This document shows positions 2,140 to 60,651 of a DNA stretch of 64,000 nt, in pieces; positions within the stretch are counted from its first letter, which is position 1, and every line of letters starts with the position of its first letter. The translations under genes were made by a program, and so were the position numbers. Below the pieces are notes generated by a model. It was given only the letters and a program-made list of their open reading frames with translations. It was not told the origin of the DNA and ran no database searches. Source of the stretch: a virus; IMG/VR virus record IMGVR_UViG_3300049027_000140, positions 34,116 to 98,115 of that record; one strand, given 5' to 3'.

Positions 2140-2858
2140 TCCTCGCCCTCGACATCGAGACCATCCGTCACCCGGACGTCCCGGCGCCGGAGGCCGACGA
2201 GCAGGAGGACCGCTGCCCGGCGGCGCCGCATCACCGGATCGTCGCGGCGGCTGGAGTGGTGCTGGAGGAGCAGCACAAGCCGCTCTGGTACGAGGCTGAC
2301 CGCGCCGTGACGTTCGGCGAGGGCAGCACGGAGGAGCCCGTGATACTGGAGCACCTCGCGCGCGCCTTCCGGAACCGGCCGCAGCTGCTCACCTGGAACG
2401 GCGACGGCTTCGATCTGCGCGTGATCATCGCCGCGGCGATGGAGCACGGCATCCCGGTGCCGTGGCTCCTCTCCCGCGAGGTGACCTATCGATACGGCTG
2501 TGACGGCCACGAGGACCTCTGCGACACGCTCTCGCAGTACGGAGCGGCGAGGCGTGCCAAGCAGGACGCTTACGCCCGGCGGATCGGCCTGCCGGGGAAG
2601 ATGGGCGTGGATGGCGGAGACGTGGCCGCGATGGTTGCCGAGGGCCGCCTGGAGGTGCTGCGAGAGTACAACCTCCAGGACTGCGGCCAGCTCGCGGGGG
2701 TGTTCATCCGGCGCGAGTACGTGGCCGGGCGGCTGACGCTGGAGGGGTACCGGCAGAGCGCGGCGTCGCTCGTGGGCTTGATGGAGAGAACGCCGGGGCT
2801 TCGGCCGATCGTCGAGCACGAGCGGTTCAACCGGAAGCGTTTTTTGCTGGAGGGGTAG
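2136..2858 (+). CDS. PolB-type 3'-5' exonuclease (DnaQ-like fold)
   Basis: Likely a stand-alone 3'-5' exonuclease related to the exonuclease domain of B-family polymerases. The three metal-binding motifs are visible: LALDIET (Asp6, Glu8), LTWNGDGFD (Asp93) and YNLQDC (Tyr178, Asp182). At 240 residues there is room only for the nuclease domain. It starts at GTG inside the previous stop and runs directly into the YqaJ-type nuclease, followed by RecT, so it belongs to the DNA recombination or replication module. A role in trimming 3' ends during recombination or repair is inferred from position. Motif-based family assignment is strong; the substrate is unknown. Confidence 0.88.
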   Translation: MILALDIETIRHPDVPAPEADEQEDRCPAAPHHRIVAAAGVVLEEQHKPLWYEADRAVTFGEGSTEEPVILEHLARAFRNRPQLLTWNGDGFDLRVIIAAAMEHGIPVPWLLSREVTYRYGCDGHEDLCDTLSQYGAARRAKQDAYARRIGLPGKMGVDGGDVAAMVAEGRLEVLREYNLQDCGQLAGVFIRREYVAGRLTLEGYRQSAASLVGLMERTPGLRPIVEHERFNRKRFLLEG

Positions 2859-3713
2859 ATGCTGACGGAATCCCAACGCGCAGCCAGGATGGCGGGGCTC
2901 GGCAGTTCGGATATCGCTGCGGTGGCCGGCGAGCACCCGTACAAGAACGCGCACGCCGTCTGGCTGGAGAAGCGCGGGCTCGTGGATCCGCAGCCCGAGA
3001 CCGACGCGACGTGGCTGGGCCACCAGATGGAGCCCATCATAGCTGCCCGGTACGCGCAGGAGATGGGCGTGCGCATCGTTCCAGGACCCGGCACGGTCGC
3101 GCATCCGGAGCACCCGTGGGCGCTCGCGACGACCGACTACGAGCATGCGGACGGCGCGCGCGTGGTCGAGTGCAAGTGGGTTGGAATGCGGCCTATGGCA
3201 CACTGGTCAATGGATGCGGACGGAGCGCCGATCTACGTGAATCTGCAAATGCAGCATCAGATGTTCGTGCGAGGCATCAACCGCGCCGACTGCGCTGTCA
3301 TCTTCGGCGCAACTGCCGAGTTCAGGATCTACGAGTTCACGCGGGACAACGGGATAATCGATGCTATCTTCCGCATCGGCCAGCGCTTCTGGCAGCGAGT
3401 GCTCGACGGCGAGCCGCCGCCCATCGACGAGACGGAGGAGGCGCGGCAGACGCTGCTCGCGCTCTACCCGACGAGCTACGCGCCGCTGAAGCCGGCGCCG
3501 CCGGAAGCTGACCGGTGGTTCCAGGAGCACGAGGCGGCGGACGCCGATGCGGAGGCGGCGCTGGCGAGGAAGAAGCTGGCGGCGAACAAGCTGCGTGAGG
3601 CGATCGGGGATGCCGTGGGGATCGAGGGTCCCTTCGGCAAGGCGACTTGGAAGGCGGACAAGAGGGGCGTGCGCACGCTGCGCACCTACCCGAGGAAGGA
3701 GCGCGCCGCGTAG
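2859..3713 (+). CDS. YqaJ-type viral recombinase exonuclease
   Basis: Expected to resect double-stranded DNA ends 5'-3' to produce 3' overhangs for the RecT annealase. This is the lambda Exo/RecE role, carried out by a PD-(D/E)XK nuclease. Visible hallmarks are GLGSSDIAAVAG (13-24), LGHQMEPIIA with Glu58, the metal-binding Asp93 in ATTDYEH, and VECKW with Glu104 and Lys106. Length (284) is normal for the family. The C-terminal 80 residues are helical. It begins one base after the upstream exonuclease and precedes recT, the usual exonuclease-annealase pairing. Confidence 0.93.
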   Translation: MLTESQRAARMAGLGSSDIAAVAGEHPYKNAHAVWLEKRGLVDPQPETDATWLGHQMEPIIAARYAQEMGVRIVPGPGTVAHPEHPWALATTDYEHADGARVVECKWVGMRPMAHWSMDADGAPIYVNLQMQHQMFVRGINRADCAVIFGATAEFRIYEFTRDNGIIDAIFRIGQRFWQRVLDGEPPPIDETEEARQTLLALYPTSYAPLKPAPPEADRWFQEHEAADADAEAALARKKLAANKLREAIGDAVGIEGPFGKATWKADKRGVRTLRTYPRKERAA

Positions 3714-3727
3714 GCGCGGAGGACGAG

Positions 3728-4603
3728 ATGGCGAATCAGGCACCGGCGAACATGACGACGACCAACGGCAACGGCAGCGCGGCTGTGGTGAGGGGGCCGC
3801 AGGCGCGGCTCAAGGCCATCAAAGAAGAGCTGGCCAAGGCGAGCAAGACGCTGGCGGTGCTGCTGCCGAAGCACGTCACCATCGACCGCATGGTCCGGAT
3901 CGTGACGTCATCGGTCAGCAGGACCCCTGCCCTACTCGACTGCACGCCGCAGTCGATCGTCCTCGCGACGGCGCAGGCGTGCGCGCTCGGTCTGGAGCCG
4001 GGGACCGCGCTCGGGCTCGGCTACCTCGTGCCCTTCAAGAAAGAGGCGCAGTTCATCCCAGGTTACCGCGGCCTGGCGAAGCTCGCGGTGCAGAGCGGCG
4101 AGGTGCAGTGGATCCAGTCGCGTGTTGTCTACGAGAAGGACACTTTCTCCATCGACTACGGCACCGAGCAGAAGATCGTCCACGCTCCCTTCCTCGCCGA
4201 GGAGGACGCCGGCAAGGTCATCGGCGCCTACGCGGTCGCGGAGATGAAGAACGGCGCGAAGCTGTTCGAGTTCATGACGATCGCTCAACTGGAGGGCATC
4301 CGGCGCCGCTCGAAGTCGGCGGACGACGGCCCGTGGAAGACGGACACGGAGGAGATGTACCGGAAGACGACCGTCCGCCGCCTCTGCAAGTCGCTTCCGC
4401 TCTCCGAGGAGCGCCTGGAGCGCGCACTTCACCATCAGGCGGTGGCCGAGGCCGGCGAGGCGCCCGACTACGGCGACGTGATCGAGGTGCTCGGCGACGT
4501 GGCCGAGGACGCGACGAACGGCGGCGACGGAGCGCCCGCCCCCGAGCCATCCCGCACGGACGCCGCGCGTGACCGTCTCCAGGCGCGGGCGGGCCAGTCG
4601 TGA
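3728..4603 (+). CDS. recT: RecT-family single-strand annealing protein
   Basis: RecT anneals complementary single strands and promotes recombination or concatemer formation with its partner exonuclease, here the YqaJ-type protein just upstream. The 291-residue product has the family core: KHVTIDRMVRIV (about 52-63), a run around LATAQACALGLEPGT and a conserved QFIPGYRGLAKLA segment near residues 110-122. The C-terminal 45 residues are acidic, Gly/Pro-rich and probably disordered. ATG at 3728 follows GAGGACGAG; a longer in-frame reading only overlaps the nuclease gene. It overlaps the SSB-tail gene by four bases. Confidence 0.95.
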   Translation: MANQAPANMTTTNGNGSAAVVRGPQARLKAIKEELAKASKTLAVLLPKHVTIDRMVRIVTSSVSRTPALLDCTPQSIVLATAQACALGLEPGTALGLGYLVPFKKEAQFIPGYRGLAKLAVQSGEVQWIQSRVVYEKDTFSIDYGTEQKIVHAPFLAEEDAGKVIGAYAVAEMKNGAKLFEFMTIAQLEGIRRRSKSADDGPWKTDTEEMYRKTTVRRLCKSLPLSEERLERALHHQAVAEAGEAPDYGDVIEVLGDVAEDATNGGDGAPAPEPSRTDAARDRLQARAGQS

Positions 4604-7312: not shown

Positions 7313-7770
7313 TGTCCTGCGCCGCCGTCGACCCCTTCGCCTGGCTCCCGCCGCACCTGCGCTCCGCCGGCGAGCGCTGGGCCTTCGGCTTGCGGCCGGG
7401 CGCGACCTGGTGCGTGTTCAGCATCCGCGGCGCGCTCTGGTACGGCGACGGCGCGTGCCTCGTGAGCTCGGGGCTGCCAGCGCATGGGCCGCAGTCCGCG
7501 ACGGCGCGGCTGCTGGAGGAGTACCTCGACACGGCTGCGGGCGAGCTGGCGATACCGGTGGTGCGTGGCGGCCCGGTGCGCGTGGGCGATGCGTGGATTC
7601 CGGAGGCGCATCACGGGCTGGTAGCCGAGCTCTTCCCTGGGGCGACGTGGAGCAATCCGCTCTGGTGGAGCGACTGGGAGCGAGATGCTGTGCCAGCGGC
7701 GCTCGCCAGATGCGATGGTGAAGCGGTGGCGTTGGTGCTTCCGCTGACTGGCAGTCTCGACAAGGTGTGA
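7312..7770 (+). CDS. Hypothetical protein, 152 aa
   Basis: A Trp-rich globular protein (WCVFSIRGALWYGDG, NPLWWSDWERD) without membrane segments or known motifs. ATG shares its A with the previous stop. It is followed by a 42-base gap, the first break in this overlapping run. Function unknown. Confidence 0.65.
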   Translation: MSCAAVDPFAWLPPHLRSAGERWAFGLRPGATWCVFSIRGALWYGDGACLVSSGLPAHGPQSATARLLEEYLDTAAGELAIPVVRGGPVRVGDAWIPEAHHGLVAELFPGATWSNPLWWSDWERDAVPAALARCDGEAVALVLPLTGSLDKV

Positions 7771-7812
7771 TAGGCTGTGCGGACTGACGGCGCCGCGAGG
7801 CGCGCTGGAGAG

Positions 7813-8037
7813 ATGATGAACGACCCGATTCCAATGCTCATCTGGTGTCCGCTATGCAAGGAGCGCCACATCGACCGCGGCGAGTTCGCCACGAAGCCGC
7901 ATCACACGCATTCGTGTCAGGGCTGCGGGCTGACGTGGAGACCGGCGGTCGTGGCGACGGTGGGCGTCCAGTACCTGCCAGGCTTCAAGGACGAAGATTG
8001 GCACACGGAGAAGAAGCCGGCCGCGTCGGAGACGTAG
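7813..8037 (+). CDS. Zinc-finger protein (CPLC...CQGC type)
   Basis: A 74-residue protein with WCPLCKERHID (about residues 11-21) and HSCQGCGLTW, giving two CxxC pairs separated by a GEFATKPHHTH segment. I have seen this arrangement in small phage zinc-finger proteins with RHID and HHTH elements, usually of unknown function in replication regions. ATG at 7813 follows GGAGAG. DNA or RNA binding is inferred from the motif only. Confidence 0.75.
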   Translation: MMNDPIPMLIWCPLCKERHIDRGEFATKPHHTHSCQGCGLTWRPAVVATVGVQYLPGFKDEDWHTEKKPAASET

Positions 8038-8078
8038 AACAAAAAAATGAGCGCGTCGCGAGTCGCTACGGAGCCAAG

Positions 8079-8303
8079 ATGGCAATCGTCGTGAAGTGGC
8101 GCAAGGACGGGACTTACCTCAGCGGTTTCTACTCGTCGCGCAAAGGTCCGCGCTTAGCCTGGAGCCGAAAGCAGTCGGAGGCGATGCTGTTTGCGACCGC
8201 CCAAGGCGCGAAAGACTGCGTGAAGGGACACCTGGGACGGTGGGGATTCATGCGAGCGCAGGTCGCGCTCGTCCGCCTCGTGCCCAAGAAGCGCGCCGCG
8301 TGA
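8079..8303 (+). CDS. Small basic hypothetical protein, 74 aa
   Basis: Very Lys/Arg-rich with an N-terminal beta segment (MAIVVKWRKDGTYLSGFYSS) and a helical C-terminal half ending KKRAA. Start ATG at 8079 has only a weak upstream purine stretch. The composition suggests nucleic acid binding, but no fold is recognised. It overlaps the next gene by four bases. Confidence 0.6.
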   Translation: MAIVVKWRKDGTYLSGFYSSRKGPRLAWSRKQSEAMLFATAQGAKDCVKGHLGRWGFMRAQVALVRLVPKKRAA

Positions 8304-8503
8304 CCCTCCTCGCCTCGCGCTACCCGCACCTCTCCCCTGCGCACCTTGCCGATGCGGAGGAGCAGTTCCAGGCGATGCGGGCGGCGCTGAACGAGCGGAA
8401 CGGCCGCGGGCTCGGGCCGAGGCGGAGCGACGGGTGGCTGGCGGAGATGGCGGTGGATGCCGCGTTGCGGGGTGTGAAGGTGGGGTGGTTGTGGGGCGGG
8501 TGA
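8300..8503 (+). CDS. Small hypothetical protein, 67 aa
   Basis: GTG start inside the previous stop. A helical protein with SRYPHLSPAHLADAEEQFQAMRAAL and a Gly/Trp-rich end (VKVGWLWGG). No family is recognised. Confidence 0.55.
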   Translation: MTLLASRYPHLSPAHLADAEEQFQAMRAALNERNGRGLGPRRSDGWLAEMAVDAALRGVKVGWLWGG

Positions 8504-8508
8504 GGAGG

Positions 8509-9081
8509 ATGATCGTGAGACACAAGGAGTTCATGGTGTCGCTGGTAGACGGCTCGCACTTCACGACGCGCGAGGTTGAGCCCCGCATCCGGACGGCGTT
8601 CGGGAAGGAGTTCGTCCCAGCAATCGAAGCCGCAAACCCGGGTGCAATCCAGGTGCTCGCCGACGAGCTGACCAAGCTGATTCAGCGCAAAGGTCGCGCG
8701 GTGGCCGAGGCCGGCGTCAACGAGTACGTCAAGGAGGCGTGCTCAGACCTGCGCGATCGGTACAACCGGGCGATCGAGGAGGCCGACGCGGAGCGTGCTG
8801 CGCTCGCCGCGGAACGCCTCCGCCTGAGCCAGTCCGACCCGCGGTTCGCATGGGCGGAGGAGCGGATCGCTGCGCTCATGGAGGAAGCGAAAGGCTCGCG
8901 CGACCGATACGCACTCCAGCAGGCAATCCGTAGCTCTGGCCTCATTGCCTTCGCTGCACTCGGGGGCACGTCCGTCGGGGCACACGCCCCGCAGCCGACC
9001 CAGGCGAGGTCCTCGTACGAGGACGATGAGGACTGGGGGAGCGAGTCGCCCAACGGCTCTTGCTGCCCGGGGGACGCATGA
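8509..9081 (+). CDS. Hypothetical helical protein, 190 aa
   Basis: GAGGAGG lies directly before ATG 8509; the in-frame GTG at 8515 has the better spacing and may be the true start. The central 100 residues are charged helices (for example EEADAERAALAAERLRLSQ), followed by a short hydrophobic stretch (SSGLIAFAALGGTSVGAH) and an acidic Ser-rich tail ending SCCPGDA. It could be a coiled-coil scaffold or an adaptor. Function is unknown. Confidence 0.7.
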   Translation: MIVRHKEFMVSLVDGSHFTTREVEPRIRTAFGKEFVPAIEAANPGAIQVLADELTKLIQRKGRAVAEAGVNEYVKEACSDLRDRYNRAIEEADAERAALAAERLRLSQSDPRFAWAEERIAALMEEAKGSRDRYALQQAIRSSGLIAFAALGGTSVGAHAPQPTQARSSYEDDEDWGSESPNGSCCPGDA

Positions 9082-12037: not shown

Positions 12038-12549
12038 TGCCCGAGATCCTCCTCTCCCCCGGCGACATCTTCGCCAGCGGCTGCGAGGCGCTGGTCAACC
12101 CGGTCGACACCACGGCCGCCATGGGTGCCGGCCTCGCGCTGGCGTTCACCAAGCGCTTCTCGCAGCAGACGACGTGGTACCGCGAGCACGCCCGCCGCGG
12201 GTTCGCTGAGGCCGGCAGCGTCTACCACGTGCTGCCGCGCCGAGACGAGGAGAGGCTCTCCGCCGCGCGCTGGGTGCTGGAGCGGCACAGGGCCGGCGGA
12301 CGCGCGCAGCCGCTCGTGCTGTTCGCCACGACCAAGGCGTCGTGGAAGAAACCCTCCGACCTCCGCTGGGTCATCGGCTGCTGCCAGGCGCTCGTGGACG
12401 TGGTGGCCGAGCTCGGCATCCGGTCGATCGGCATCCCGGCGCTGGGCTGCGGCGAGGGAAAGCTCTCCTGGACCGACGTGCGCCCGCTGCTGCTCGGCGC
12501 GGCGCAGCAGATGCAGTGCGAGCGCGTGGTGGTGTTTGAGCCAAGGTGA
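12037..12549 (+). CDS. Macro domain protein (ADP-ribose-binding)
   Basis: A 170-residue single macro domain. Signature pieces are LSPGDIFASGCEALVNPV (6-23, ADP-ribose adenine loop), MGAGLALAF (substrate loop, about 29-37) and IPALGCGEGKLSW near the end (distal phosphate loop). Family members bind or hydrolyse ADP-ribose adducts or ADP-ribose-1''-phosphate. In a phage this could remove ADP-ribose from targets modified by host toxins or defence enzymes, which is inference. ATG 12037 was preferred; GTG at 12034 is in frame and also possible. Confidence 0.88.
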   Translation: MPEILLSPGDIFASGCEALVNPVDTTAAMGAGLALAFTKRFSQQTTWYREHARRGFAEAGSVYHVLPRRDEERLSAARWVLERHRAGGRAQPLVLFATTKASWKKPSDLRWVIGCCQALVDVVAELGIRSIGIPALGCGEGKLSWTDVRPLLLGAAQQMQCERVVVFEPR

Positions 12550-12578
12550 TTGCGGATCTGCCCGACAGACATCATATT
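12550..12578 (+). promoter_or_regulatory. Candidate promoter of the sigma factor gene
   Basis: TTGCGG (12550-12555), a 17-base spacer and CATATT (12573-12578) stand in an AT-rich patch that is rare in this sequence. An AGGA follows at 12580-12583, just before the ATG at 12588. It would give the sigma gene a separate transcript start. Confidence 0.4.
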
Positions 12579-12587
12579 AGGATATCG

Positions 12588-13412
12588 ATGCAGCTGCCAA
12601 TTGGACGCCGGTTGAAGCACAGCGACATCACGCCGGAGATGGAGACCGAGCTTGCGCGCCAGTGTCAGGCTGGCGACACGCGAGCCGGTGCCGCTCTGGT
12701 CATGGCGAACGAGCCCATGATCTACAAGTTCGTGCGGCGGTACTTTCGCAAAGGCGTCCGGACCGAGGACATCATGCAGGCGGCGCGGTTTGGGTTCTAC
12801 CGCGGGATCTTACGATTCGACCCGGCCGTGGGCGCTCGGCTCACGACCTATGCGCTCTACTGGGCGAGGAACGAGGCGGTCGACGCACTCCAGGGCGAGG
12901 GGCCCACGATCCGCATCCCGCGGCACGTCTTCGACGCGATCTACAAGTCGGCGAAGACCGGAGAGGCACTGGATGAGGAGACGGCCGAGGCGGCGCGGCT
13001 GCTGACCACGCCGAGCCTCGACATCCCGGTGCGCAGGGACGGGTCCACGCGCGGCGACCTCGAGGTGAACCCGATGCCGGGCCCAGAAGCATCGGCCGAG
13101 GCCGACGACGCCCAGCGACGCCGCCGGGAGCTCATCCAGCGGGCGCTGACGTGGCTGACCGATCGGGAGCGCGAGATCGTCGAGCGTCGGTTCTGCGAGG
13201 AGCCGGAGAGCTACGAAGCGATCGGCGCCTCGCTCGGCTTCACGAAGCAGAGGACCGAGCAGATCATGAAACGCGCGCTGCCGAAGCTCGACCGGGCCGT
13301 GCGGCGCGTGATGGCGAAGGACGACTGGATGCTCTGGGGCGCGCGCGGGCCGCTGAAGCCGCTTGGGGAGACGGCGAGGGGCGAAGCGGAGAGCGTGGAG
13401 GTGGCGAGGTGA
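12588..13412 (+). CDS. Sigma-70 family RNA polymerase sigma factor
   Basis: Expected to direct RNA polymerase to phage promoters. Region 2 spans about residues 37-101, with FDPAVGARLTTYALYWARNE matching the core-binding and -10 recognition helices. Region 4 spans about 182-240 (LTDREREIVERRF, then ASLGFTKQRTEQI as the -35 HTH). Region 1.1 is absent; the 274-residue length is like alternative factors. I chose ATG 12588, which has AGGA upstream and an AT-rich promoter-like patch; GTG at 12546 overlaps the macro gene and would add 14 residues. The next gene is also sigma-like. Confidence 0.9.
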   Translation: MQLPIGRRLKHSDITPEMETELARQCQAGDTRAGAALVMANEPMIYKFVRRYFRKGVRTEDIMQAARFGFYRGILRFDPAVGARLTTYALYWARNEAVDALQGEGPTIRIPRHVFDAIYKSAKTGEALDEETAEAARLLTTPSLDIPVRRDGSTRGDLEVNPMPGPEASAEADDAQRRRRELIQRALTWLTDREREIVERRFCEEPESYEAIGASLGFTKQRTEQIMKRALPKLDRAVRRVMAKDDWMLWGARGPLKPLGETARGEAESVEVAR

Positions 13413-51566: not shown

Positions 51567-52249
51567 CAGAGCCGGCGGAAGGCGCGCGGGTGGGCGTCCA
51601 CGTCGCGGCTGCGGAACTCGCCGGCCCGGTTGGGCTTCCAGCTCCGGGCGGCGGCGCCCTCCACGTCGAAGCCAGCCGCCTCGACGTTGTGTCGCGTGAC
51701 GGCCCAGACGTAGCCGAGCCGGGCGCGCCGCGGGGGCTCGAAGCCTTCGGCGACGGGCGCGTCGACCTTCGGCTCCGGCACGGGCGGCCTGAACTCGCGG
51801 TCGAACTCCTCGTTCTCGCCCTGCGGCGGGTAGTCGCCCGGGTCGTGGATCCACCGGTCGCCGGTGATGTGCTGCGTCTGGATCGGCCAGTTGCGGCCGA
51901 GCGCGGGGATCCAGAGCAGCGCCTGCGTCCCCTCCTCGCGGATCTCCCGCACCTCGGCGCGCACCGAGAGGTTGCCCTCGAAGTGCTCGCAGCGGAGGCG
52001 ATCGCCCACCGCGAGGCCGGGAGGCCCGTGCGGCACCTCGGCCGCCGTGGGACCGATGAGGGGCGGGCTGCTCGGGGGCAGCGCCTCGGTGGCGGCGTCG
52101 GGGGCGCCCGCCATCTCCCCCGCCGTCGGCTCCTCGAACGGCGCATCGCCGTCCGCGCCGTCATCGAACGCGTCGCCGAGGAGATCGGCGCCGCCGGTCT
52201 CGGAGGCCGAGGGTTGCCCGACGCCTCCCCTGCGATGACGGCGGCTCAT
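51566..52249 (-). CDS. Hypothetical protein after the major capsid gene, 227 aa
   Basis: An Asp/Glu/Pro-rich disordered first third is followed by a compact beta region from about 84 (LRCEHFEGNLSVRAEVREIR, QALLWIPALGRNWPIQTQHI) and a basic end. The location downstream of the capsid gene is typical for head completion proteins. No family is recognised. Confidence 0.65.
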   Translation of the reverse strand: MSRRHRRGGVGQPSASETGGADLLGDAFDDGADGDAPFEEPTAGEMAGAPDAATEALPPSSPPLIGPTAAEVPHGPPGLAVGDRLRCEHFEGNLSVRAEVREIREEGTQALLWIPALGRNWPIQTQHITGDRWIHDPGDYPPQGENEEFDREFRPPVPEPKVDAPVAEGFEPPRRARLGYVWAVTRHNVEAAGFDVEGAAARSWKPNRAGEFRSRDVDAHPRAFRRL

Positions 52250-53403
52250 CAGATCGGGGTGTTGATGAGGAAGGCGGTGTCGGCCGCGACGATCTTGCGA
52301 TCCTCGAAGTGGGACCGCTTGTAGGTCCAGCTACCGATCGGACCCTCCTTCGGGTCGAACCAGAGCTGCTGGAAGACGCCGTTGACGAAGCCGGGGGCGG
52401 TCGCGGCGGACGCCCCCGTGCCGGTCCAGCGGAAGGTGTAGCCGAGGCTCGCGTTGCGCTGCATCGGCGCATCCGACACGTGCGCGATGACGAAGGCGTT
52501 CCCCCAGATCCGCTCGTAGTCGGCCGTCTGGCCGATGTTCGCCGTGTCGGTGCGGGCGTCCGAGACGAGGAGGCCGTCGAGGCCGGTGATCTCGAGGAAC
52601 GCCGCCGGGCTCACGGCCCCGCGCTCGTTCATGCCGAGCATGCCCAGCAGGCCGGTGTTCAGGGCGATCTGATTCCAGACCTCGAGGCTGGTCGCCGCGA
52701 CGAGCCGCGTGTTGCCGCGCCCGGGCCACATCGCCGCCTTCGCGGTGAGGATGTTCGCCAGGATCGTGGCGGTGTCGGTGTTCCACTTATCGTCGCCGGT
52801 CAGCGTCATGACGTTGCTGGCGCTGTAGTTGTCCGGGTCGGTGACCATCTCGGCGATCTCGCGCTCGCGGTTGAGCGCAAGGTCGTGGTTCACGTCCTCC
52901 TGGAGCTGGAGGAGTTCGTTGAGCGGCTGCGGCGAGTTCAGGATGACCTGCGCCTCGACCACGCCCTTGAGCTGGTCGTCCTTGACCGAGTAGGTCGAGG
53001 TCGAGAGACGCCGGTTGATCTCGTTCGCGTCGCCGCGCTGGCCGCGCCCCTTGGTCTTCGGCTTCTGGAGGCGGTCGCGCCGCTCCCACACGTTGAACTG
53101 CGCGCTCATCGCCTCGACCGGGACGACGGGGAAGAGCTCGAGCCCGATGAGGTCCTCGGCGGCGTAGGCGATCGACAGGTTGTTGAGCACCGGGACGCCC
53201 TGCATGTCGCCGGGCGACATTTCCCTCTTCTTGAGGGCCATGTCGGTGCTCCGCTGGACGAGCGCCTTCATGCGCGGATCGCCGGCCTGGGCATCCTCGA
53301 GCATGCTCGTGAAGCCCATCTTCTTCGCTGCGTACTTGCTCGCGAGGCTGGTGCCGTCGCGGTTCGGGCCCTTGCCGGCCTTGTAGTGGACGATCGTGGA
53401 CAT
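52249..53403 (-). CDS. Major capsid protein, 384 aa
   Basis: Principal head protein of the HK97-fold type. The N-arm region (1-70) is charged. The central part shows the expected order: LIGLELFPVVPVEAMSAQF, a spine-helix region with LNELLQLQEDVNHDLALNRE, and a C-terminal beta region with DAPMQRNASLGYTFRWTG and SWTYKRSHFEDRKIV. Size and place after the decoration and protease genes agree. Its ribosome binding site lies partly inside a perfect hairpin (53409-53427). Expression is probably tuned relative to scaffold and decoration proteins. Confidence 0.93.
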   Translation of the reverse strand: MSTIVHYKAGKGPNRDGTSLASKYAAKKMGFTSMLEDAQAGDPRMKALVQRSTDMALKKREMSPGDMQGVPVLNNLSIAYAAEDLIGLELFPVVPVEAMSAQFNVWERRDRLQKPKTKGRGQRGDANEINRRLSTSTYSVKDDQLKGVVEAQVILNSPQPLNELLQLQEDVNHDLALNREREIAEMVTDPDNYSASNVMTLTGDDKWNTDTATILANILTAKAAMWPGRGNTRLVAATSLEVWNQIALNTGLLGMLGMNERGAVSPAAFLEITGLDGLLVSDARTDTANIGQTADYERIWGNAFVIAHVSDAPMQRNASLGYTFRWTGTGASAATAPGFVNGVFQQLWFDPKEGPIGSWTYKRSHFEDRKIVAADTAFLINTPI

Positions 53404-54015: not shown

Positions 54016-55434
54016 TCAGCGGGTGAGCGAAGTGGCGGTGTTGTTCGCGGCGCGGGACTTCTGGAGCTCCGCGGTGCGCTTCTCCATCTCGGCGAACAGC
54101 GCGGCATCGTCGCCGACGCTGCTCAGCTGCTGCACCGGCGGCTTTTCGTCGGGCTTGGAGGTGTCCGGCGTGCGCTCCACGACGTCGCTCCGGAGGGCCC
54201 CGGCGGCGACGCCCTTCTGGCGGGTCTCGGCGACGTCGGCGGCGTAGCCATCGGGGTCGGTCGCGGCGCGCTTCGCGAGGCGCTGCGCCTGGGCCGGCGA
54301 GAGCTGCCACGGGTCGAGCCCCGTGAGCGGCCCGAGCTCCAGCGCGGCCTTGGCCGAGATCGCCTCGTCCGCCTTCTTCTTCTCGTCGTCGGCGCGCTTC
54401 GCGGCCGCGTCGCGCTCCTGGGTGAGCGTCGTCTTCGCGCTCTCCGCCGCGGTCGCGCGCTCCTCGGCGCTCTTCGCGCGGGTCTCCGCCTCGGCCTTGG
54501 CCTGCTCGGCGGCCTTGGCGCGCTCCTCGGATGCCTTCGCGCGGGCGGAGAGGTCCTTGTGCTCCTGGGCGAGCTGCACGACGCCCGGCGCCTCGAGCAC
54601 CATCACGCCCTTGCACTCCTCGCACTCGTGCGTGATCACGCCGCGGCGCCCGAGGTCCTCGTGCTGCTCCTGGGTGAGCTTCCTGATCTTCATGACGTTC
54701 TTCCTCATGCCGGCAGCCGCCGGGTTGTTGTTTTGACCCCGCTGGCTGCGGGCGGTCGGGATGGAGTGCACCGCGTTCTTGGCGCGCTCCTCCAGCATCT
54801 TGGACATGCGCTCTTCGGTCGACTCGATCACCAGCGCATCGGGGTTCGCCCCCATGGGGCAGATCGAGAACTCGTAGAGTTCGTTCTGGTCGCAGACCGT
54901 GCGCTCGACGCCGTTGATCGTCTCGCGAGAGACCTTGTGCGGCTTGAAGCCGACGCTGCCCGCCTTGAGCATCCCCTCAACGAGCATGTCGAAGACGATG
55001 ACCGCGAACGGGTTCTTGACGCTGAACTGCGGCGTGATCAGGAGCTGGTCGTTCTCGACGACGTGGCGCACCGACCGCCCGACGGGCAGCGTGGGGACCG
55101 CCCAGTCGTTGTTGTGCGCCCACAGGATCACGGGGTTCCTGTCGAACCGGGTGAAGATCCAGTTCTGGCGCAGCACCTCGCCGTAGGAGTCGACGGCCTC
55201 GGTGGACGCTACGTAGTCGACCTGCCGCTCTGCCTCGCGCACCGCTCGCACGTGGACCGCCCGCATGTGCAGGCCATCCGGTCCCTTCGCGGGATCTCGT
55301 CTCTTCGCGGCGCCCGCGTCGGAGGCGACGGAGAGGAGGTCGGCTCGGGTGTCGTCGTCGAGCCCTCCCGCGTTGAGGGTGAAGACGGCGATGGCGCGCG
55401 CGAGGGCGTCGAGTCTGTGCTCATGGGTCTTCAT
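54016..55434 (-). CDS. HK97-type prohead protease fused to scaffold domain, 472 aa
   Basis: Residues 70-200 carry the serine protease of HK97 prohead type: VILWAHNN with His107 and KAGSVGFKP with Ser160, in the expected spacing. Residues 262-275 have a CxxC pair (HECEECKGV). Residues about 285-365 form a long coiled coil (AKASEERAKAAEQAKAEAE), and the final 100 residues are disordered. This is the layout of a combined protease and scaffold, as in Mu gene I with Z. It should shape the prohead and then degrade the scaffold. Confidence 0.88.
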   Translation of the reverse strand: MKTHEHRLDALARAIAVFTLNAGGLDDDTRADLLSVASDAGAAKRRDPAKGPDGLHMRAVHVRAVREAERQVDYVASTEAVDSYGEVLRQNWIFTRFDRNPVILWAHNNDWAVPTLPVGRSVRHVVENDQLLITPQFSVKNPFAVIVFDMLVEGMLKAGSVGFKPHKVSRETINGVERTVCDQNELYEFSICPMGANPDALVIESTEERMSKMLEERAKNAVHSIPTARSQRGQNNNPAAAGMRKNVMKIRKLTQEQHEDLGRRGVITHECEECKGVMVLEAPGVVQLAQEHKDLSARAKASEERAKAAEQAKAEAETRAKSAEERATAAESAKTTLTQERDAAAKRADDEKKKADEAISAKAALELGPLTGLDPWQLSPAQAQRLAKRAATDPDGYAADVAETRQKGVAAGALRSDVVERTPDTSKPDEKPPVQQLSSVGDDAALFAEMEKRTAELQKSRAANNTATSLTR

Positions 55435-55474: not shown

Positions 55475-56170
55475 CTACGCGGCGCGGCCGCTCTCGAGCG
55501 GGAAGAGGCCGAGCACGCGCGAGCGGTAGAGAGGGTGGCTCGCGTAGTCCGGTCCCCATTCGCGCCGCTTCTCATCGATCCACGCGCGCGTCGCGAGGCC
55601 GTGGATGACCCTCTCGCCGGTCTGCGCGTTCGGTGTGTCCTCGCTGTTGAGGCGCATGGTCGACCAGCGCGGCTCGTGCGCGCCGTGGTGGATCTGGTGC
55701 CAGAGCGTGCCGGGCTCGGCCTTGGCGAGGCCGAACATGATGGCGCGAGCGCCGGCGTCCGTTGCCTGGTCGATCGCGCGCAGAGTCTCGTCGCTCAGAT
55801 GGTCCGCGTTGTCGACGACGATCAGCTCGGTCCTGCCGACCACTTCGAGCGGATCAGGTCTCCACCATGAGAACTCCGACGAGCAGAAATAGATCTTGCT
55901 CTCCGCGGCCCGACCCGGCAGCAGGTTCAGTACGTCGTTCACCAGAACGATGCCTGGTGACACCAGGTGCACACGTGACCATCGCGTCGCGTAGAACCAG
56001 AGCGCCGCCGCTGCTGCGGCGGTCGTCATGCCGGTCTTGTGACCGGACACGACTGCGAGCCGCGGCGCCTCGGCAGCCGCGCGCAGGACGTCCTCCTGCC
56101 CACGCCAGAGCGTGAGCCCGAGGTCCTCGCGGGCGAACTCGCTGGGAGACACGTTCGACTGGTCGCTCAT
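55475..56170 (-). CDS. Truncated TerL paralogue with lost catalytic residues
   Basis: A 231-residue protein that aligns with the ATPase half of TerL (58160-59794). LWRGQEDVLRAAAEAPRLAV matches LWRAQRRICKAI, and VSGHKTGMTTA (42-52) matches KSGHKIGKS. The segment GLATRAWIDEKRREWGPDY (191-209) is nearly identical to GLATLGWIEEKRKEWGPDY of TerL. The Walker A Lys is Met48 and Walker B Asp-Glu is Asp120-Asn121, so ATP hydrolysis is not expected. The protein ends before the nuclease domain. It lies between portal and protease genes. A packaging regulator or motor partner is inferred; it could also be decaying. Confidence 0.85.
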   Translation of the reverse strand: MSDQSNVSPSEFAREDLGLTLWRGQEDVLRAAAEAPRLAVVSGHKTGMTTAAAAAALWFYATRWSRVHLVSPGIVLVNDVLNLLPGRAAESKIYFCSSEFSWWRPDPLEVVGRTELIVVDNADHLSDETLRAIDQATDAGARAIMFGLAKAEPGTLWHQIHHGAHEPRWSTMRLNSEDTPNAQTGERVIHGLATRAWIDEKRREWGPDYASHPLYRSRVLGLFPLESGRAA

Positions 56171-57696
56171 GACATCTCCGCGGCTCTCCGCCGCTCGCGG
56201 CGCCGCTGCGCGTCCTCGATGGCGCGCGCCTCAGCTTCGGCCTCCGCGTCGAGGTGGTCGGCGAGGTCGTCGCCTTCGAGCATCCGGACCCGTCCGGGCT
56301 CCGGGAGCGCGATGCGGGCGCCCTCGCTGGCGATCCGCATGCGAGCGATGCGCGCGCGGTCCGCCTCGGCGGGCACGAGCGCCGGGACCGGGTTGCCGAT
56401 CACGGCCTCGCCCGTCTTCGGCGTCGGCATGCCGTAGAGCTTGTAGATCCAGGGGATCGACACCGGCAGCCCGAGCCTCACGAGCCGCTCGATGGCCTGC
56501 GCGAGCGCCGCGAGGTCCACGTCGTCGCCGCCGGCGAGGTGGATGCTGGGCACTGCCGCGTCGGCGCCGAAGTTCAGCCGGACCGCAGCGGCCACGAGCT
56601 GGCGCTGGAGCACCGAGGCGATCGCGCGCGCAGCAGCGTTGCGCCGGTCGTTCTGCACCTTCCGGTGCACCTGAGCCTGCGACAGGCTCGAGCCGTCCTC
56701 CGTGGTCATCGTCTGACCGAGGACAGCCTTCGACATCTCCGCCGCGAGGAACGCCGCCAGGGAGCCGTGGGCGCCTCCGCCGTTGCTCCCCGTCTGACCG
56801 CCATTCGACTTGGCGAACACGACGTCCAGCGCCACCGTGTCCGGCAGCATCGTCGCCCCGTTGGTGACGAGGTACTGGAGCGCGTTCTCGAGCGCCGCGA
56901 TGTCCTTGTCGCTGGCGAACTCGTCCTTCTTGTACTTGCCGATCCGCCAGGGCTTCCACGCCAGCTCGGCGAGGGCGAGCCAGTCCTTGACCGTCCAGTT
57001 GCGGAACAGCGCCGCCCACGTGAGCGGCCGGATGAGGCCCTCCCGGGAGGCGATCGCGCCTGTCACGCGCGGCCTGAACTGCACGAAGCGGTTCGGGTAC
57101 TTCGTCGGCAGGTGGATGCCGCTGGTAGCCCCGAACCCGCTCACGTCGAAGTGGAGCTCCGACGTGGCCTGGTCGTAGAGGAAGCGCCGCGGCATGATCG
57201 GCTCAGCGCCGATCGGCACGAGTTCGAGGCCGCGCTTCTCCCAGATGACCTCGGCGACCGCGTGGCTGTAGGTGTAGCCACCGGCCAGGTGCGAGATCAG
57301 CGTGGAGAGGTCGTAGGCCCTGTCGCTCTCGACGCGGCTGCCGAAGCTGCGGAGGAAGGACTCGACCCAGGCGGCGATCTTGAGGTCCCGGCGCCGCGGG
57401 CTCGCCGGGACGACCTGCACCTCAAGGAGCGCGAGGGCGAGTTCGAAGGTGCTGAGCACCGCGTGGAGGTGGCAGTCCTTCTGCCGGCTTTCGTCGAACA
57501 GGTCGACGAGCTGCCAGAGGTGCCCCTGGTCCGCCGCGGCGAAGATGTTGCTGACGGCGCGGGGGGTCAGCTCGCCGCCGATGCGGCCCGGGTTAAACCA
57601 GAGCGGCAGTTCGTCGACGACGCCGACGCGCTCCGTCATCGCTCGCCGCCCGACGGCACGGGCGAGCATGCCGCTCAGGGAGGCGAAGATGCCCAC
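56167..57696 (-). CDS. Portal protein (DUF935, Mu gp29-like), 509 aa
   Basis: Dodecameric channel at the capsid vertex. The DUF935 family is recognised from LTPRAVSNIFAAADQGHLWQ, HLHAVLSTFELALALLEVQV, VRPRVTGAIASREGLIRPL-like text near 205-230, and a C-terminal region with AAARAIASVLQRQLVAAAVR and VSIPWIYKLYGMPTPKTGEA. The last 60 residues are charged. It overlaps the TerL-paralogue gene by four bases and lies downstream of TerL. Confidence 0.93.
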   Translation of the reverse strand: MGIFASLSGMLARAVGRRAMTERVGVVDELPLWFNPGRIGGELTPRAVSNIFAAADQGHLWQLVDLFDESRQKDCHLHAVLSTFELALALLEVQVVPASPRRRDLKIAAWVESFLRSFGSRVESDRAYDLSTLISHLAGGYTYSHAVAEVIWEKRGLELVPIGAEPIMPRRFLYDQATSELHFDVSGFGATSGIHLPTKYPNRFVQFRPRVTGAIASREGLIRPLTWAALFRNWTVKDWLALAELAWKPWRIGKYKKDEFASDKDIAALENALQYLVTNGATMLPDTVALDVVFAKSNGGQTGSNGGGAHGSLAAFLAAEMSKAVLGQTMTTEDGSSLSQAQVHRKVQNDRRNAAARAIASVLQRQLVAAAVRLNFGADAAVPSIHLAGGDDVDLAALAQAIERLVRLGLPVSIPWIYKLYGMPTPKTGEAVIGNPVPALVPAEADRARIARMRIASEGARIALPEPGRVRMLEGDDLADHLDAEAEAEARAIEDAQRRRERRRAAEMS

Positions 57697-57725: not shown

Positions 57726-58163
57726 TCACGACCTGACGGTGTAGAACAGGTTCACCTTGACGCTGCCCGCGGTCGCGGTGTTCAGGTCCTCGCTGCTCGT
57801 GATGACGACCTTGTACGTCTCGTTCGCCAGCGGGCGCATCAGGACCGCCTCGACGCCCGCGGTCCCCGTCTTCGGGAACCCGGTCTGCCCGGCCGCGACG
57901 TTGACCGTCGTAACGATCGAGTCGTCGTCGCTGTCGCTCCCGACCTTGAGCACGTAGGTAGCGGTCGCGCCGTCGGAGAAGCCCGTGAAGCTCTCGCCGA
58001 TCGTGTGGCCGAGGTAGCGCGCGTCATCGGGCAGGACGGCGCCAAGGTCGACCTCGTGGCTCGTCACGCCCTCCGCCAGGTCGGCGAAGTCCGTGAAGGC
58101 GATCGTGACGGTGCGCTTCTGGAATGCGGCGCTGGGAACGCCTGCGGGGGTCATGCCTCTCAT
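57726..58163 (-). CDS. Small structural protein between TerL and portal, 145 aa
   Basis: Beta-rich (TVTIAFTDFADLAEGVTSHE, ATYVLKVGSDSDDDSIVTTV, VKVNLFYTVRS), with no enzymatic motif. The position suggests a minor head, decoration or neck component. ATG 58163 overlaps the TerL stop; a second ATG three codons later is possible. No family is recognised. Confidence 0.65.
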   Translation of the reverse strand: MRGMTPAGVPSAAFQKRTVTIAFTDFADLAEGVTSHEVDLGAVLPDDARYLGHTIGESFTGFSDGATATYVLKVGSDSDDDSIVTTVNVAAGQTGFPKTGTAGVEAVLMRPLANETYKVVITSSEDLNTATAGSVKVNLFYTVRS

Positions 58164-59794
58164 CCGAATCCTCTTCCGGGCTGGTCCGCGTAGCGGAGCG
58201 GTGTCTGCTTCTTCGGCAGGTGGACGGTGCGGCGCTTGACCACGCCGTCGAACACGGCGAGCCCGGCCCCGTCGCCATGGTCGGGGGAGCGGCCGATGCG
58301 CTTCTTGAGCTTGTCCTTGCTCTCGATCTGGACGCGGCCTACGCCGTCCAGGAAGTACTTCGGGGCGAGCAGGTCATCCTGGAGCCGCTGGTCGGGCTCG
58401 AAGCCACCGCCGGCGCGGATCCAACTCCGCACGCCCAGGCCGATCTCGGCGCGGAGGTTGACGTACTCGTCCTCGTTGCCGTCGGTCGGGCTCTCGCCGG
58501 AGTTCACCGCGATCACCTCGACGCCGCGCTTGTGCTTCAAAAAGTCGTAGGCGGAGGCGCCGATGCCGATCGCGTCGATGAGCACCAGCGGCCGCTCGAC
58601 GCCGACCACGTGCTCCTCGATGCAGGTCATCACCTCGTCGGCCACTTCCTGCCCGTCGCAGAACTTCAGCACGCGAGGCTGGAAGAGCCGTAGGCCGCGC
58701 CGCGGGTAGATGACCGTGAGATCGTCGCCGTACCTGGCGGGGTCGACGCCGATCTGGAGCCGCTCTGTCGGCTCGCGCCAGGCGCCGCGAACCACCGCGA
58801 GTTCGCCTGGGGTGCGGATGATGCCGCGCCAGTTCTTGGGGTCGTCGAGAAGCTCTCGTCGCCCGAGCAGCTGCGCGGCGAACGTGTACCAGACGCGGTG
58901 GGCCCGCTCGATGTCCTTGAGCGAGACGACCTGGTCGGCTGCCTGGAGCGGAAACTCGCCGAGGACGCGCACGCGGTACCGCGGGTCGTTCTCGTAGTCG
59001 GGGCCCCACTCCTTGCGCTTCTCTTCGATCCAGCCGAGCGTGGCCAGGCCGGGGAGGACCTTCTTGCCCGCCCGGACGTTGGGCGTCTCCTCGCTGGAGA
59101 AGCTGAAGCAGATGTAGAGGTCGCGCTTCGAGTTGAAGGCGTCGTAGAACTCGCCCGACGTCTGCGTCGGGTTGCTGAACATCAGCACGGAGGCGCCGCC
59201 GGCTCGGTTGCCGTCGATCGCCTCGAAGATCGCCGCGCCGACGCCGCTCGCCTCGTCGATGAGGTAGAGGATGTTCTCGCCGGAGATGCCGGCCATTCGC
59301 TCGGGCTGCTTCGTGCTGAAGCCGAGGACCTCGCTCTGCTGCCCTGACTCAAGGTGCTGGAGCCCGAGCTCGGGCACCTCGTGCAGGCGACCACCGAGAC
59401 CACCGAGGACCTTGAGCCGATCGGCTGCGAGCCCCCAGAGCTTGCGGATCTCCCTCCACAAGATGCTGCGGATCTGCCGCGCCGTCGGAGCCGTCATGAT
59501 GACGCGGGCGGCGGGTCGCGTGACCCACCACCACAGCGCCACGACGGCGATCACGAGGCTCTTACCGATCTTGTGGCCGCTCTTGACCGCGACGCGGACC
59601 GGCCCGCGGGAGCTCCGCGCGATGGCCTTGCAGATCCGCCGCTGGGCTCGCCAGAGCTGGACGCCGAACACGTCCCAGGCGAACCGGACCGGGTCGTTGT
59701 ACCAGCGCGCGATGAGCTGCGCGGCCAGCTCGCGGGCTTCGCCGCTGTCGCCCGGGGCCTCGGAGGCTCCGGCGTGGTCTGCTGCGGCCTGCAT
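58160..59794 (-). CDS. terL: Terminase large subunit, ATPase and nuclease
   Basis: The DNA packaging motor. ATG 59794 follows the small-subunit-like gene; the longer frame is spurious. The ATPase half has Walker A GHKIGKS (73-79, Lys78) and Walker B ILYLIDEAS (Asp180, Glu181). A C-motif-like FSNPT is at 206-210. The RNase H-like nuclease half shows IGVDPARYGDD (Asp351), LVLIDAIG (Asp407) and SPDHGDGAG (Asp505, Asp508). The 544 residues are normal. A truncated relative lies at 55475-56170. Confidence 0.95.
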   Translation of the reverse strand: MQAAADHAGASEAPGDSGEARELAAQLIARWYNDPVRFAWDVFGVQLWRAQRRICKAIARSSRGPVRVAVKSGHKIGKSLVIAVVALWWWVTRPAARVIMTAPTARQIRSILWREIRKLWGLAADRLKVLGGLGGRLHEVPELGLQHLESGQQSEVLGFSTKQPERMAGISGENILYLIDEASGVGAAIFEAIDGNRAGGASVLMFSNPTQTSGEFYDAFNSKRDLYICFSFSSEETPNVRAGKKVLPGLATLGWIEEKRKEWGPDYENDPRYRVRVLGEFPLQAADQVVSLKDIERAHRVWYTFAAQLLGRRELLDDPKNWRGIIRTPGELAVVRGAWREPTERLQIGVDPARYGDDLTVIYPRRGLRLFQPRVLKFCDGQEVADEVMTCIEEHVVGVERPLVLIDAIGIGASAYDFLKHKRGVEVIAVNSGESPTDGNEDEYVNLRAEIGLGVRSWIRAGGGFEPDQRLQDDLLAPKYFLDGVGRVQIESKDKLKKRIGRSPDHGDGAGLAVFDGVVKRRTVHLPKKQTPLRYADQPGRGFG

Positions 59795-60651
59795 CAGCGC
59801 CTCGGCGGCTGCCAGATGAACGGCCGCTTGGGCGCCGGGCCTGCCATGGCGGGCTCGGGAGCGCGCGGCGTGGGGGAAGGTTGCGGCGCCGGTGGGGTCT
59901 CCTCGACCGGCCCCTCCACCACCTCGCGGTCGGGCTCGCCGTCCGGTTCGCCATCGGCCCAGCGCGGTGGGGGCCTCAGGTACTCGTCCTCGTCCTCCTC
60001 GCCGTCGGGCTCGTCGCCCTCGATGGCGGGCGGAGGGCTGTTGCCCACGAGCGCCTTGAGGCCGTCGGCGGGGGTCTCCTTCTTCTGGCCCGGCAGCCCG
60101 CCGCCGGTGACCATGTTCCGGATCTGGACGAGCTTGCCGAGCTCCCTGGCGAGCCCTGCCATCAGGGTCGACTGCGGGAACGTCATCTCGTCGGGATTGC
60201 CACGGACGGTGCGCCCGACCGCCTGGACCGTCTGAAATAGCTCGAGCGCCAGCTCGTCCAGCCCGGAGAGGTCCGGCTTCCAGACGTGGACCTCGGTCGC
60301 GGGCTCCGACGCGTCGGGCCTGCTGTCGGGCCTCGGCGCCGCCTGTCGGGCCTGCTGTCGGGGCTGGCCGGGCCGGAGCGGGGTGACCGTCGCGACGCGG
60401 GCAGAGGGCGGTGGGGGCTTCTGGGCGGGCTCCGGCGCGCCAGCCCGGTGCAGCTTCCAGTGCCGGCCGAGGGCGTCGTGGCGGATGTGCTCGCCGTGCT
60501 CCGCCTCCAGCCAGACCGAGATCCCCCGCGCCGAGTCCCCGCGCGCCAGCCGCGCCTCGATCTCCGCCCGCCACGGCGACGTGCAGGTCTTGCAGTCGTG
60601 CCTGAACTTGGCGGGGCTGTTGTCGGGGCTGGCGGGCCTGTCGGCGGCCAT
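59794..60651 (-). CDS. Terminase small subunit-like protein, 285 aa
   Basis: Directly upstream of TerL and coupled to it (TGATG). Residues 20-68 have CKTCTSPWRAEIEARLARG and GEHIRHDALGRHWKLHR, the Cys-pair and HTH style seen in small terminase-like DNA-binding proteins. The middle is helical and acidic and the last 90 residues are Pro/Glu-rich and disordered. It probably recognises the packaging site. The identity is inferred from position and the HTH pattern. Confidence 0.7.
   Translation of the reverse strand: MAADRPASPDNSPAKFRHDCKTCTSPWRAEIEARLARGDSARGISVWLEAEHGEHIRHDALGRHWKLHRAGAPEPAQKPPPPSARVATVTPLRPGQPRQQARQAAPRPDSRPDASEPATEVHVWKPDLSGLDELALELFQTVQAVGRTVRGNPDEMTFPQSTLMAGLARELGKLVQIRNMVTGGGLPGQKKETPADGLKALVGNSPPPAIEGDEPDGEEDEDEYLRPPPRWADGEPDGEPDREVVEGPVEETPPAPQPSPTPRAPEPAMAGPAPKRPFIWQPPRR

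Follow-up and report, generated by a model that had tools for sequence, protein, structure and literature searches.

In descriptions of viral packaging motors, the ring consists of identical copies of the terminase large subunit (TerL), and how strictly these subunits must cooperate is debated. The window that we analysed, a stretch of 64,000 nucleotides (bases 34116–98115 of a 98,115-base virus record), encodes one full-length TerL and one shorter, TerL-like protein (PAR), and raises the question of what the shorter protein does in a phage that has a complete motor subunit. An earlier note had read PAR as a catalytically dead, nuclease-less TerL paralogue retained as a packaging component. 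Our best reading is that PAR is a TerL-derived pseudo-ATPase that acts, if at all, through contact with the TerL ring. Specifically, we propose, with a probability of roughly 0.4, that PAR is a lineage-specific TerL duplicate that was cut down to the ATPase domain and lid, lost hydrolysis, and was kept as a binding protein. A young relic is a serious rival to this pseudo-ATPase reading.

PAR is encoded within a head operon with the order TerL, 145-residue protein, Mu-like portal, PAR, protease, small head protein, and major head protein (Table 1). The PAR reading frame is intact, comprising 231 codons from an ATG start that overlaps the portal stop codon by four bases (ATGA, positions 56167–56170) and is preceded by a GGAG Shine-Dalgarno sequence, in agreement with the earlier claim of an in-frame gene coupled to the portal. 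The accompanying claim of normal codon bias is right in part: the GC content of third codon positions (GC3) is 0.87 for PAR versus 0.92–0.97 for most of the head genes around it, and PAR has a codon score of 0.33 bits per codon where the other head and packaging genes that we measured have 0.45–0.83.

Table 1. Features of the packaging and head region, in window coordinates
Feature	Position	Strand	Evidence
Possible TerS	59794..60651	−	Weak match (E 2e-9) to the gene preceding TerL in L092
TerL, full length, ATPase and RNase H-like motifs	58160..59794	−	Start codon inferred; open frame continues to 60574
145-aa protein, TerL–portal interval	57726..58163	−	ORF
Mu-like portal	56167..57696	−	PF06074, E 2e-65
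GGAG Shine-Dalgarno, 5 nt 5′ of PAR start, within portal gene	56176..56179	−	Sequence
PAR, ATPase-only TerL paralogue, 231 aa	55475..56170	−	ORF list, blastp, clade alignment, predicted fold
Degenerate Walker A of PAR, SGHKTGMT, Lys>Met48	56024..56047	−	Clade alignment, codons
Degenerate Walker B of PAR, LIVVDN, Glu>Asn121	55808..55825	−	Clade alignment, codons
Lost motif III of PAR, GLA (aa 147–149) replacing SNP	55724..55732	−	Clade alignment
Conserved C-terminal (lid/linker) segment of PAR	55493..55666	−	DNA and protein comparison
Head maturation protease	54016..55434	−	phrog_80, E 4e-16
Major head protein	52249..53403	−	phrog_1005, E 3e-49

Comparison of PAR with the TerL of the same phage establishes it as a nuclease-less paralogue of that protein. 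PAR matches the TerL ATPase domain with 32–37% identity (blastp: 32% over 253 columns, E 8e-33), and all of the shared motifs named in the earlier note are present in both proteins: the LWR-Q start, the SGHK loop, the GLAT..WI.EKR.EWGPDY segment, and the FPL end. TerL-family profiles phrog_5902 and phrog_2 (terminase large subunit) match PAR; searches of Pfam and NCBIfam assigned no family, with weak Pfam matches to nSTAND and AAA_22 below the cut-off. The nearest sequences are those of a TerL clade of Myxococcota phages and prophages and related viral contigs (phrog_5902/phrog_2). Like a TerL ATPase domain, PAR has the ASCE P-loop core and lid, the Q motif, the SGHK loop, and the GLAT...RVLG.F block; unlike TerL, it lacks the Walker A Lys, the catalytic Glu, motif III, the nuclease domain, and about 37 residues that are deleted. 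The ORF stops 6 residues past the FPL motif, where the nuclease domain would begin, and contains no RNase H region, as had been noted. A full-length TerL with all motifs is present, which led us to reject a split motor in which PAR would supply the ATPase half.

The residues lost from PAR are those of the catalytic centre. Codon 48 is ATG (Met) and codon 121 is AAC (Asn), at positions that are Lys and Glu, respectively, in all TerLs of the clade, confirming both substitutions proposed previously; since the change from Glu to AAC takes two base changes, one sequencing error cannot explain Asn121. Motif III, the PERMAGISG loop before Walker B, and the Q/W/E helix that follows strand 2 are gone as well, losses that the earlier note did not list. 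In an alignment with about 30 TerLs from its clade, PAR retains 13 of 15 strongly conserved residues in its N-terminal part (aa 1–75; 39% identity), 7 of 31 conserved residues in its catalytic middle (aa 76–168; 19% identity), and 11 of 15 strongly conserved residues in its C-terminal part (aa 169–231; 53% identity). In the alignment, the damage thus sits in the catalytic centre, and both ends are conserved. That PAR is still an active ATPase, firing through neighbouring TerL subunits or by means of an unusual active site, is very unlikely. Walker A motifs do differ among TerLs, the critical lysine of HK97 TerL being an unusual one (PMC9410871), and K45 in the GHK of PAR occupies a position where all TerLs of the clade likewise have Lys; however, the Walker B Glu is also gone from PAR, as are motif III and the conserved loop that precedes Walker B, and K78 and E181 are kept in every TerL of the clade alignment. 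The packaging ATPases of phi29-type phages, reported to have a vestigial nuclease domain (PMC7672431), resemble PAR in being TerL homologues lacking an active nuclease. They differ from PAR in being the active and only motor of their phage, whereas in PAR it is the ATPase side that is lost, and a full TerL is present alongside it.

Structure prediction of PAR alone, a check proposed in the earlier note, returned a confident TerL-ATPase fold (AlphaFold2; pLDDT 85.6, pTM 0.84), with low confidence confined to the region around residues 99–112 and the last residues. The top Foldseek matches of the model in the PDB are to the ATPase domain of P74-26 TerL (E 1e-6), and the nearest solved structures are those of P74-26 TerL (4zni–4znl), D6E TerL, T4 gp17, and Sf6 gp2. 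Judged by alignment and predicted fold, PAR combines a kept fold with lost catalytic residues, which is one mark of a pseudoenzyme. We favour a retained binding protein because the catalytic middle is eroded, the flanks are kept, a fold is predicted, and the frame is intact.

The same observations bear on the possibility, to our mind somewhat less probable, that PAR is a relic: a duplicated or recombined TerL fragment, perhaps once functional, now under little or no selection. The eroded middle fits such a history, as do a codon score and GC3 below those of the neighbours. The absence of stop codons is by itself weak evidence to the contrary because the GC content is about 70%: in a simulation of neutral decay that started from the TerL domain and was mutated to the identity of PAR (1,600 runs, four base compositions), the frame stayed open in 1–26% of runs. 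The simulation did not, however, reproduce the contrast between codon positions (GC3 minus GC2), which is 0.359 in PAR versus 0.23 ± 0.03 under neutral decay and was reached in 0 of the 1,600 runs. Because neutral decay misses this contrast, PAR appears to have been a coding gene for most of its divergence. Further points against a relic are the intact 231-codon frame with its Shine-Dalgarno sequence and portal overlap, the stable fold predicted, and the orderly loss of catalytic residues with both ends kept. The sequence, the fold prediction, and the simulation together support the proposal that PAR is something other than a fresh pseudogene; a recent loss of function, in line with the lower GC3 and codon score, may still be compatible with the simulation.

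Searches for orthologues identified none in 77 related portal–protease junctions, about 200 TerL loci, and more than 1,200 genomes and records. In particular, none of the 77 viral loci with a related portal and protease carries PAR between these genes, and PAR is absent from the closest relatives, L184 by TerL (57%) and L215 by portal (45%). Only full TerLs were found in whole-record searches of 40 related viral records and in overlapping sets of 379 Myxococcota genomes and 318 genomes of one class; the tblastn matches inspected in phages and plasmids were likewise all full-length TerLs, and a first scan of genome contigs with PAR plus TerL gave no match. With one exception, in an alphaproteobacterial metagenome-assembled genome (L126), all PAR homologues inspected in phages, plasmids, viral contigs, and genomes are full-length TerLs. 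Several other candidates were rejected: short frames in L164 and L181 lie at contig ends, and a match in G822 is spurious. L205 carries a same-clade TerL with a frameshift, through error or decay, at the ATPase–nuclease junction (266–1833). L178 carries a distant alphaproteobacterial terminase whose ATPase part seems to lie in one ORF and whose nuclease-like part seems to lie in two others (84–2142). The absence of orthologues, even from the closest relatives, counts against a retained binding protein, and the singleton status of PAR across the searches is what a relic would show. It would also fit an assembly or sequencing artefact that placed a piece of a foreign TerL in the head operon, PAR coming from a single metagenomic record and no second record having the same arrangement. 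We consider such an artefact extremely improbable: the frame, Shine-Dalgarno sequence, portal overlap, and GC profile fit the operon, and the catalytic sites carry several independent multi-base changes.

In the 77 related loci, portal and protease are mostly direct neighbours, with other genes in the gap in a few cases. L215 has an S49-type peptidase in this gap (7398–8570), and the L184 phage (L184/L342) has a long additional coding region ahead of the protease (about 594–1700 in the reverse complement of L342). Among related phages, the content of the portal–protease interval thus varies, with genes that come and go. This variability is one point in favour of an unlikely alternative, namely that PAR is a TerL fold repurposed outside the motor, as a decoy or dampener of TerL-sensing defence of the Avs1–3 type or in a new, enzyme-free structural role in the head. 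Other points are that, by alignment and model, the motor chemistry appears to be gone and the fold kept, and that Avs3 binds phage TerL (PDB 8dgc). Against it, no defence model matched PAR, in a library mainly of defence and not counter-defence proteins, and a fragment of TerL might switch an Avs-type sensor on instead of blocking it.

The exception in L126 (contig JAJFGV010000094.1) is an extra ATPase-only TerL of 254 residues (2331–3095), located directly upstream of the TerS and TerL genes, within a module that has a related portal and major head protein. Like PAR, it is an additional TerL whose packaging module includes a Mu-like portal, and it ends at the same domain boundary; unlike PAR, it lies upstream of TerS/TerL and not after the portal, and it keeps most catalytic residues, among them the Lys of Walker A and the Glu (SGHKVSKT for Walker A, LLEE for Walker B, TGTP for motif III). 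AlphaFold2 predicts a fold with pLDDT 95.6 that resembles the T4 gp17 ATPase domain. Searches of 385 alphaproteobacterial genomes, and of 142 genomes from the order of L126, turned up no ATPase-only relative of the L126 copy. The second ATPase-only TerL of L126, cut at the same boundary, is a further point in favour of retention of PAR as a binding protein. The earlier interpretation is supported in part, with the role as a retained packaging component a hypothesis: orthologues of PAR are absent from the genomes and records searched, a finding that had been set out in advance as pointing to decay or sequencing error, although a separate ATPase-only copy is present in the packaging module of L126.

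In a maximum-likelihood tree, one TerL clade (32 rows, support 100/98) contains both PAR and the L126 copy, each on a very long branch (1.92 for PAR versus a median of 0.37). The long branch and weaker codon bias of PAR fit relaxed constraint, which counts against a retained binding protein and in favour of a relic. Approximately unbiased (AU) tests reject neither a shared origin of PAR and the L126 copy (PAR held with the L126 copy, p 0.42) nor an origin of each from its own TerL (PAR held with its own TerL, p 0.10; L126 copy held with its own TerL, p 0.32). Nucleotides 525–686 of PAR have 75% DNA identity to the resident TerL, above that to any other TerL, which hints at an origin from, or exchange with, the resident gene.

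How might such a TerL fragment act? The parts that PAR retains are the lid segment and the N-terminal scaffold of the nucleotide site. Through these surfaces it would bind other motor subunits, joining or capping the TerL ring as a subunit unable to fire, and in the ring it could tune motor assembly or speed. The T4 motor still packages, at reduced speed, with one to three inactive subunits (PMC8589836), so that a dead subunit could serve as a governor; this tolerance, together with the isolated D6E ATPase domain, which is released from the restraint that its nuclease domain imposes (PMC5727402), makes ATPase-only subunits in a ring physically plausible. By analogy, the motors of lambda and phi29, which unlike that of T4 hardly tolerate dead subunits (PMC8589836), would argue against a retained binding protein of this kind. 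Docking on the portal is attributed to the C-terminal nuclease part of TerL (PMC5727402; PMC9410871). Because PAR lacks this part, a partner of the TerL ring is likelier than the portal-bound adaptor suggested earlier, a suggestion that is thereby weakened.

The literature on TerL paralogues, pseudoenzymes, and Avs3 structures yielded no direct precedent for a pseudo-TerL. If our reading is right, PAR would be, as far as the literature searched shows, the first known natural pseudo-TerL, and a phage-encoded dead, nuclease-free subunit would be a natural experiment on subunit cooperation; if PAR is instead a relic, it still illustrates cleanly the duplication of TerL domains and their loss of functions. 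A broader proposal, which we regard as doubtful, is that some phages add an ATPase-only TerL paralogue, here non-hydrolysing, to form a mixed ring in which a dead subunit sets speed, start, or stop, with the window phage and the L126 prophage as two cases. Elsewhere in the window, judged by sequence alone, an ORF at 12546–13412 (+) reads like a phage sigma-70-family factor, with a sigma region 4-like stretch in an ORF that overlaps and follows it, and ORFs at 2859–4603 (+) resemble a YqaJ-type exonuclease and a RecT-type annealing protein.
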